64,000 nucleotides of DNA, from contig NZ_CP114013.1 of the NCBI RefSeq assembly GCF_028416635.1, forward strand, positions 5,084,001 to 5,148,000. Direction: 5' to 3'. The notes under the pieces are model-generated. The model was not told the DNA's origin. It saw only the letters and a list, made by a program, of their open reading frames with translations, and did no database searches. Below are positions 51,956-53,770 of this stretch, piece by piece. The DNA is from Baekduia alba (GTDB taxonomy: Bacteria; Actinomycetota; Thermoleophilia; Solirubrobacterales; Solirubrobacteraceae). A program made the position numbers and the translations under genes. Every line of letters begins with the position of its first letter. Position 1 is the stretch's first letter.

Positions 51956-52207
51956 CTACGAGCTGTCGCCGCCGGCCCGCTCGCGCGCCTCGGCCGACCA
52001 GCCGACGAGGCCGATGGTGACGAGCCACGCCAAGGCCTTGTCCAGCGTCGAGATCGCGTGAGAGCTGGTCATCGCCAGGGCGCAGCTGACCGCGACGACC
52101 GATGCGAACCAGAGCCACCGCGTGCCGGCGGGCTCGTCCAGCGCGCGCACCGCGTAGGCGTAGATCACGACGGCGAAGACGAAGATCGCGAACGCGACGA
52201 GGAGCAC
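51956..52207 (-). CDS. Small two-helix membrane protein
   Basis: The 83-residue protein has three hydrophobic segments (MLLVAFAIFVFAVVIYAYAV, WLWFASVVAVSCALAMTSSH, ALAWLVTIGLVGWS). No motif for function is seen. It is 10 bases upstream of the HIT gene, so it is probably translated from the same mRNA. Start ATG 52207 has no clear ribosome site. Confidence 0.6.
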   Translation of the reverse strand: MLLVAFAIFVFAVVIYAYAVRALDEPAGTRWLWFASVVAVSCALAMTSSHAISTLDKALAWLVTIGLVGWSAEARERAGGDSS

Positions 52208-52263
52208 AGCGCGGATTGTGGTCCATCGGGCGCGCCCTTGGCAACCGGACGCGCGCGGCCGTC

Positions 52264-52491
52264 CTAGGTCAGGAGCAGCGCTGCCGCGGCGACGAGCGCC
52301 GCCGCCTGCAGGACGATGGTCGTCGCCGCGATCGCGCAGGCGATCCGGGCACGGCGGGTCGCGCGCGGGGCCGCGATCCTCAGCGCGGCGGCCGACATGA
52401 CGAACGGCACCGGGCAGATCGCGCCGCCGAGGGCCACCGCGAGGGCGGTCTCGGCGGCGCGCGGGTCCGTCGTCGGATTCGGGAGAGCCAC
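52264..52491 (-). CDS. Small two-helix membrane protein
   Basis: The 75-residue protein from GTG 52491 has two membrane helices (AETALAVALGGAICPVPFVM and ACAIAATTIVLQAAALVAA) with a basic loop between them (RIAAPRATRRARI). It is divergent from the sigma-GATase gene across 103 bp. No family is recognised. Whether it holds the sigma factor, as small membrane anti-sigma factors do, is untested; it lacks an anti-sigma domain. Confidence 0.5.
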   Translation of the reverse strand: MALPNPTTDPRAAETALAVALGGAICPVPFVMSAAALRIAAPRATRRARIACAIAATTIVLQAAALVAAAALLLT

Positions 52492-52540
52492 GGCGGCTAC
52501 TACGCGGCGCGCGCCCGTTCGGATGCCTGCTCCGCCGCCG

Positions 52541-52591
52541 TAGAATCCGGGGCGTGTCCGGTCTGATCGCGCTCGAACGTCACCAGGAGGT
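52541..52591 (+). promoter_or_regulatory. Promoter -10 box and Shine-Dalgarno of the sigma-GATase gene
   Basis: TAGAAT at 52541-52546 is a good -10 hexamer. No strong -35 is seen 17 bp upstream (TTCGGA at 52518). AGGAGGT at about 52584-52590 is a full Shine-Dalgarno 4 bases before ATG 52595, the strongest in the window, which fixes the start and implies good translation of the sigma-GATase protein. Confidence 0.6.
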
Positions 52592-52594
52592 GCG

Positions 52595-53731
52595 ATGACG
52601 TTCGACGCGATCCTCACCGAGCAGACCGGGCCGCTGACGCGGCGCCTGACCCGCATGGTCGGTGACCGCGAGACCGCGGAGGACCTGCGGCAGGAGACGT
52701 TCGCGCGCGCGTGGCGCCGTGCCCCGCAGGGCGCCGAGGCGCCGGTGCTGCGCGCCTGGCTGCACCGCACCGCGACGAACCTGGCGCTCGACGAGCTGCG
52801 GCGCCGGCGCCGGCGCGAGCACGTCCCGCTGCACGCCGGGCTCGTGGATCCGGGCGGCTCGGCGGACGAGGCCGCGCGCGACCCGCGGCTGCGCGACGCG
52901 CTCGGCCAGCTCACCGCGCACCAGCGATTGGTGTTGCTGCTGCGCTTCGAGGCGGGGCTGTCGCTGCGCGAGGTCGGCGAGCTGCTGGACCTCAACGAGG
53001 ACGCGGCGCGCAAGCGCGTCTCCCGCGCGCGGGCCGTGTTCCTGGAGGCCTACGCGGCCGCCGGCGCGCCCGACGAGCGGCCGACCGTCGTGCTCCTGCT
53101 CGGCCGCGAGGACCCGGCGCCCTACGAGGCGTGGCTGGCGGGCGCGGGCGCGCGCGTCCGGACGCTCACCGGCGAGCAGGCCGGGCTCGACCTGGCCGGC
53201 GCCGACGCGCTCGTGCTCGGCGGCAGCGAGACCGACATCCACCCGAGCCTCTACGGCGAGCCGGTCAGCCCGCACACGCTGCGCACCGACCTCACGCGCC
53301 ACCTGCGCGACCTCGCCGCGCTGCGCCACGCGTTGACCACCAACCTGCCCGTGCTCGGCGTGTGCAGCGGCGCGCAGCTGCTGAACGTCCTGGGCGGCGG
53401 CACGCTGCACCAGGACCTGCCGGCGTCCGGCTTCGACGCGCTCGACCATCGGGATGCGCACGACATCGCGACCGGCGACGGGACGCTCGCGCGCCGGCTC
53501 CTGGGCACAGCGCCCGCCGTCGTCTCCGAGCACCACCAGGCCGTCGACCGGCTGGGCGGCGGCCTGCGCGTGACGTCGACCGCGCCCGACGGCCTGATCG
53601 AGGCGCTCGAGGTCCCCGGCCACCCGTTCGCCCTCGGGGTGCAATGGCATCCGGAGCGCTGCGCGGACGGCGCCGAGGGCACGGGCCGCCGGACGGCCGA
53701 GGCGCTGGTCGACGCGGCGCTCGCGGCCTAG
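52595..53731 (+). CDS. ECF sigma factor fused to class I glutamine amidotransferase (PuuD-like)
   Basis: One continuous 378-residue frame carries two domains. Residues 8-75 are sigma region 2 (MVGDRETAEDLRQETFARAW, VLRAWLHRTATNLALDELRR) and 98-152 region 4 (LTAHQRLVLLLRFEAGLSLR, EVGELLDLNEDAARKRVSRA). Residues 163-378 are a peptidase C26/class I glutamine amidotransferase: VLGGSETDIHPSLYGEPV, nucleophile Cys257 in LGVCSGAQLLNVLGGGTLHQ, SEHHQAVDRLGGGL and the triad end QWHPE (His352, Glu354). The closest known enzyme is PuuD, which hydrolyses gamma-glutamyl-GABA. All catalytic residues are there. The full Shine-Dalgarno fixes ATG 52595. No anti-sigma gene adjoins, so the GATase domain may be the control module. 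Confidence 0.92.
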   Translation: MTFDAILTEQTGPLTRRLTRMVGDRETAEDLRQETFARAWRRAPQGAEAPVLRAWLHRTATNLALDELRRRRRREHVPLHAGLVDPGGSADEAARDPRLRDALGQLTAHQRLVLLLRFEAGLSLREVGELLDLNEDAARKRVSRARAVFLEAYAAAGAPDERPTVVLLLGREDPAPYEAWLAGAGARVRTLTGEQAGLDLAGADALVLGGSETDIHPSLYGEPVSPHTLRTDLTRHLRDLAALRHALTTNLPVLGVCSGAQLLNVLGGGTLHQDLPASGFDALDHRDAHDIATGDGTLARRLLGTAPAVVSEHHQAVDRLGGGLRVTSTAPDGLIEALEVPGHPFALGVQWHPERCADGAEGTGRRTAEALVDAALAA

Positions 53732-53770
53732 CGCGGTCCGGTTCGGCGCGGGCCGAGCGTCTTATAGGTG

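Follow-up and report, generated by a model that had tools for sequence, protein, structure and literature searches.

The activity of extracytoplasmic function (ECF) sigma factors is as a rule held in check by a separate anti-sigma protein, and the signals sensed by the types that carry a built-in domain are mostly unknown. The gene described here, located in a 64,000-nucleotide stretch of the Baekduia alba genome (contig NZ_CP114013.1, positions 5,084,001 to 5,148,000; “the window”), encodes an ECF sigma factor fused to a class I glutamine amidotransferase (peptidase C26) domain. In ECF41 (SigJ, Ecf41Bli), the promoter (TGTCACA-n16-CGTC) and the control of activity by the C-terminal extension have been established experimentally (PMC3426412). 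The fusion resembles this group in having no anti-sigma gene, an extension directly past sigma region 4, a TGTC...-N16-CGTC type of promoter before the sigma gene and a neighbouring gene, and a regulon that is very small in ECF41 and predicted to be small here (PMC3426412). It differs in the -35 element (TGTCCGSTY against TGTCACA, with equal promoter spacing; PMC3426412), the ECF41 version being seen in only one fusion (genome G388); in the extension, which is a Peptidase_C26/GATase domain of approximately 215 residues and not a SnoaL-like one; and in the targets, which are not the carboxymuconolactone decarboxylase, oxidoreductase and epimerase genes of ECF41. ECF42, ECF238, ECF52 and other sigma factors with extensions are likewise one-component regulators with on-board control, but their extensions are tetratricopeptide repeats (TPR), Cys-rich metal-binding domains or zinc fingers plus transmembrane segments. 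The available part of the review on these proteins describes SnoaL, TPR, WD40, Cys-rich and zinc-finger/transmembrane extensions and lists 26 groups with C-terminal extensions, with no amidotransferase among the extensions named there (PMC8999054). The reuse of an enzyme-like domain as a sensor recalls the MocR proteins (GntR plus an aminotransferase-like domain; PMC5320631), which are pyridoxal-phosphate-using DNA-binding repressors or activators, whereas the fusion is a sigma subunit of RNA polymerase. No described ECF group with an amidotransferase extension was found in the open literature, in agreement with the initial annotation of this DNA. The results make it probable that the fusion is an autoregulated ECF sigma factor working without an anti-sigma factor, with a small regulon and a built-in amidotransferase domain acting as a ligand-binding regulator.

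The fusion gene was present in single copy in a one-contig genome of 5.86 Mb (G000; other genomes are labelled in the same way) and consisted of one uninterrupted frame of 378 codons closed by a TAG stop (Table 1). Its layout was that of ECF (group 4) sigma factors: regions 2 and 4, no region 3 and a linker of 23 residues between them; the protein also scored above the cut-off of the NCBIfam model TIGR02937 (sigma70-ECF). The Pfam matches in the C-terminal part were Peptidase_C26 (residues 200-354, 8.3e-42) and GATase (residues 240-355, 7.9e-11). In the AlphaFold model (mean predicted local distance difference test, pLDDT, 84.6; predicted template modelling score, pTM, 0.62) the sole disordered part was the linker between sigma2 and sigma4 (74-94), and the last sigma4 helix (135-156) nearly abutted the first amidotransferase strand at residue 164, the amidotransferase domain beginning approximately six residues past that helix. 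The intact frame, the presence of Cys257, His352 and Glu354 at these very residues, the strongest Shine-Dalgarno site of the window (the best among the perfect sites found) and the lack of an anti-sigma partner, all claimed in the initial annotation, were confirmed: no anti-sigma gene could be recognised beside the fusion in the neighbourhoods of the fusion loci. Two small predicted membrane proteins encoded divergently from the fusion (51956-52492, minus strand) were considered as anti-sigma candidates and rejected, as they had no family match above cut-off; they were not conserved at other fusion loci.

The modelled C-terminal domain superposed on Lin1909 (Z 31.1, root-mean-square deviation, rmsd, 1.7, 212 aligned residues), on PuuD of E. 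coli (Z 29.7, rmsd 2.2, 217 aligned) and on SpuA of Pseudomonas (Z 29.4-28.2, rmsd 2.0, 208-216 aligned), that is, over 208-217 residues with Z 28-31 and rmsd 1.7-2.2, at 31-33% identity and with a common Cys-His-Glu triad; the gamma-glutamyl peptidase 9k7l was also among the structural matches. PuuD, SpuA and Lin1909 are stand-alone gamma-glutamyl hydrolases, whereas the domain of the fusion is shortened and joined to a sigma factor. Fold and triad place it among the class I amidotransferases/peptidases C26 (His and Glu were lost in G017 and G314), while its score for PuuD proper (NCBIfam PRK11366) was 80.1 bits against an equivalog-level cut-off of 266. The nearest fold is that of the PuuD/SpuA/Lin1909 family, but a shared fold is not enough to name the substrate. 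The protein was classed among the ECF sigma factors, as one whose C-terminal extension is of a new kind, set apart from the described groups on the basis of their descriptions, and was assigned neither to ECF41 nor to PuuD.

The initial annotation had proposed counting the genomes with both domains in one gene. Among the 232 genomes covered from the order (Solirubrobacterales-like), 28 matched the fusion profile, distributed in 13 of 54 genera and three families; 27 of these carried the fusion, it being intact and full-length in 21 and interrupted by contig ends, gaps or a draft-assembly frame break in the other six. A copy that was 78% identical and 5'-truncated at a contig end spanned the sigma-amidotransferase join in a metagenome-assembled genome of Conexibacter, to which the organism of the window is close. 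When 396 genomes from across the phylum were sampled, matches outside the order covered the amidotransferase domain only. The scan of genome contigs, based on exact peptide words, returned mostly single-domain relatives. In the tree, the amidotransferase domains of the fusions fell on one side of a branch (support 98/97) separating them from 17 stand-alone relatives, and therefore one origin of the fusion suffices. Many residues were invariant in both the sigma and the amidotransferase domains. The ratio of nonsynonymous to synonymous substitution rates in three close relatives was 0.19-0.26 for sigma2, 0.31-0.51 for sigma4 and 0.33-0.52 for the amidotransferase domain; the linker between sigma2 and sigma4 came close to 1 (0.68-1.08). 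Sigma and amidotransferase domains are both under purifying selection. At a contig edge of G294 (G294:C147:120-755), an amidotransferase of the fusion clade was preceded by a TPR-like N-terminus replacing the sigma regions, a possible domain swap.

The regions upstream of 21 fusions aligned unforced on a common consensus, TGTCCG(G/C)T(T/C)-N14-CGTC(T), with fixed spacing, free spacer sequence and a position near the start codon (in the window it ended 13 nt before the ATG). Twenty of the 21 matched it well, and that of G388 was a variant (TGTCACA...CGTT). Five fusions outside the matrix (G776, G775, G774, G768 and G314) all had this putative promoter, giving a total of 25 of the 26 readable fusion genes, always at the same position. 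The initial annotation, which proposed to look for a shared -35/-10 motif, had noticed neither this promoter nor its second copy before the next gene. The -10-like element, CGTC or CGTT at a fixed gap of 14 nt from the -35 block, would be of the CGT-containing type of ECF promoters. Among 356 predicted genes around the fusions, 18 fusion genes had matrix scores of at least 20 and one more scored 15.5; the best-scoring other gene, excluding those fetched for their motif, reached 9.3. A relaxed search of the B. alba genome allowing two mismatches was discarded as mostly noise (839 matches against 649 for the control), and exact patterns were used instead. The strength of the promoter case lies in position and recurrence, not in the motif by itself; autoregulation of an ECF gene usually shows itself as a conserved promoter in front of it, and the position of the promoter suggests that the same applies here.

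A second copy of the promoter preceded the next gene in the window, c2, encoding a small GNAT-like protein. In 10 genomes a relative of c2 was linked to the fusion; in five of them (G270, G226, G328, G353 and G298) it overlapped the fusion gene or came directly after it. A decayed second copy of the 5' end of the fusion, its promoter intact, lay before c2 in G142 and G342, approximately 600 bp upstream of the fusion; this looks like a promoter that was duplicated and then re-used. At twenty unlinked c2 paralogue loci, in genomes with and without the fusion, there was neither a neighbouring sigma gene nor a similar site close to the c2 paralogue. c2 was absent throughout one fusion-bearing genus group (g10), and its role as a universal anti-sigma factor was rejected for this reason.

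The site was also found upstream of a few other genes. A cupin gene was preceded by it in G000 and G270 and adjoined the fusion in G314; a stand-alone amidotransferase-like gene had it in G000 and G270, which are closely related and the only two of 41 genomes with a close copy; and an alpha/beta hydrolase gene, found in four of the 41 genomes (G111, G198, G228 and G386, all carrying the fusion), had it 36-37 nt before the start in all four. Candidates with a well-placed site in a single genome were an OsmC gene (G198) and a pyridoxamine-oxidase-like gene (G000). The recurrent targets (GNAT-like, cupin, amidotransferase-like and alpha/beta hydrolase genes) included no polyamine or gamma-glutamyl-gamma-aminobutyrate genes, and the link to putrescine breakdown proposed in the initial annotation found no support; nor did a motif upstream of polyamine, glutamine or gamma-glutamyl genes, the single glutamate-related site being a full-score one upstream of the glutamate synthase gene gltB (G017:C1:4316854), present in G017 only and with a leader well over 100 nt. 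Matches at the start of a DMT (drug/metabolite) transporter gene (G386/G198) and others lay inside coding sequences or lacked a well-placed start, and were not counted. Near-identical sites also preceded a gene for a protein of approximately 70 amino acids (MNPALT...FFGREHG) in G111 (G111:C5:229619) and G198 (G198:C1:3032658).

The sites before the fusion gene and before a few recurrent genes therefore point to an autoregulated ECF sigma factor that governs a small regulon and needs no anti-sigma factor. Regions 2 and 4 would recognise the TGTCCGSTY-N14-CGTC promoters, and the C-terminal C26/PuuD-like domain would hold or release the sigma part. A small metabolite may bind in the active-site pocket of this domain, the simplest candidates being glutamine or a gamma-glutamyl compound; such binding, joined in most members by turnover at Cys257, would shift the arrangement of the sigma and amidotransferase parts and switch on a regulon formed by the fusion gene itself, its GNAT-like neighbour and a small number of lineage-specific enzymes. 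In most members, the signal could be terminated when hydrolysis removes the ligand. The most economical interpretation, by analogy with the extension of ECF41, is that the amidotransferase pocket takes the place of the anti-sigma factor. The placement of the amidotransferase as an on-board regulator, suggested in the initial annotation, is supported; its gating action is something we infer.

His352 and Glu354 were retained in nearly all fusions. The exceptions were G017 (QWKPQ) and G314 (QWQPQ), both of the genus of the window, which lack His and Glu but still have the Cys, a fused layout and the promoter; these genomes were neighbours in the trees, and a single common loss is likely, short of certain. 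Hydrolysis is therefore not required in every member. The pocket appears to be under selection, yet complete turnover would be dispensable in some members, and the clade without His and Glu would act through binding or a lasting thioester. A structure of SpuA H221N holds a glutamyl-thioester (PDB 7d50), and loss of the His with the Cys kept could therefore, speculatively, give a long-lived covalent state. A bolder but doubtful version is that the sigma subunit is itself an enzyme, in which a gamma-glutamyl-thioester, formed on Cys257 and then hydrolysed, would determine the duration of sigma activity, metabolite turnover thereby directly timing promoter selection; G017 and G314 would then represent a latched, covalently switched form.

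Several points weigh against the amidotransferase as a ligand-binding regulator of its own sigma factor. The model scores (pTM 0.62) do not settle the relative placement of the sigma and amidotransferase parts, and one clade lacks His and Glu. The targets beyond the fusion gene differ between lineages, and the cupin gene of G298 has no site. Genome-wide, the exact motif is not specific when taken alone, with 16 sites where the reversed pattern gave 10; the link between promoter and sigma factor is circumstantial, with autoregulation deduced from position, and the use of these promoters by the sigma part, the gating by the amidotransferase and the ligand are all matters that we infer. Alternatively, the domain might sense no small molecule and be a scaffold for a protein signal coming from c2 or another partner, as is thought for the TPR of ECF42. 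The usual position of sigma co-regulators is that of c2 in the 10 genomes where it adjoins the fusion, five of them with overlapping or directly following genes, and the clade without His and Glu keeps architecture and promoter; this explanation is nevertheless unlikely, since the g10 group has the fusion without c2, and nearly all other members retain active-site residues that a pure scaffold would not need.

Less probable still is an ordinary metabolic gamma-glutamyl hydrolase, merely co-produced with a sigma factor that it does not control. The intact triad of nearly all members and the top structural matches, which are active enzymes or their relatives (PuuD, SpuA, Lin1909), would fit it, but the fusion persists as one clade over the order, never split into two genes and even where His and Glu are lost, expression at the level of a sigma factor is a poor route to make an enzyme, and the regulon is no polyamine pathway. 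Action on a protein, for example deamidation or deglutamylation at promoters of RNA polymerase, of a partner or of the fusion itself, is very improbable: a sigma factor carrying a catalytic domain to promoters is topologically possible and class I amidotransferase folds include peptidases such as 9k7l, but there is no candidate substrate, and the compact domain has no added part that would bind a protein. An error of sequencing or assembly joining neighbouring genes, favoured by nothing except the novelty of the pairing, was ruled out, because the fusion recurs without internal stops in other species, genera and families, with the identical join in 21 intact frames from independent genomes; the B. 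alba gene is single-copy, and the Conexibacter copy spans the join. If the amidotransferase does control its sigma factor, an enzyme active site would be wired straight into RNA polymerase, offering a compact metabolite-controlled sigma/promoter pair for engineering. Since the active site is well understood, its chemistry is predictable, and promoter and targets can be read from genomes, both the input (ligand) and the output (promoter) are directly testable.

Table 1. Features of the fusion locus (positions in the window).
Feature	Position	Strand	Remarks
Fusion promoter: -35-like TGTCCGGTC (52555-52563), N14, -10-like CGTC (52578-52581)	52555..52581	+	G000:C1:5136556-5136581
Shine-Dalgarno AGGAGGTG	52585..52592	+	Top among perfect sites found in the window
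ECF sigma factor - class I glutamine amidotransferase (peptidase C26) fusion, 378 aa	52595..53731	+	
Sigma-70 region 2, residues 14-74	52634..52816	+	Pfam Sigma70_r2, 6e-14; invariant core residues
Sigma-70 region 4, residues 98-147, helix-turn-helix	52886..53035	+	Pfam Sigma70_r4_2, 7.5e-10
Class I glutamine amidotransferase/C26 domain, residues 162-375	53078..53719	+	Pfam and predicted structure
Cys257 codon (nucleophile)	53363..53365	+	Invariant in all fusions whose sequence covers the position
His352 and Glu354 codons	53648..53656	+	Present except in G017 and G314
Second promoter copy: GGTCCGGTT (53735-53743), N14, CGTC (53758-53761)	53735..53761	+	9 nt before the next ATG
c2, small GNAT-like partner gene, 129 aa	53771..54160	+	Alternative in-frame GTG start at 53768

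For the c2 protein, Pfam gave nothing above cut-off and NCBIfam nothing at all. Its model (pLDDT 82.1) consisted of a beta-alpha-beta-beta-beta-alpha unit weakly resembling the first half of GNAT acetyltransferases (best E 0.013), and it belongs to a family of half-GNAT-like proteins of approximately 100 amino acids, of which a genome of the order can have as many as five. The fusion was located, in four g10 genomes, between a siroheme-synthase-like gene and genes for MoaC/Mog, an ABC ATPase and cytochrome-maturation-like proteins; in a fifth (G228), it likewise followed the siroheme-synthase-like gene, the downstream order being broken.
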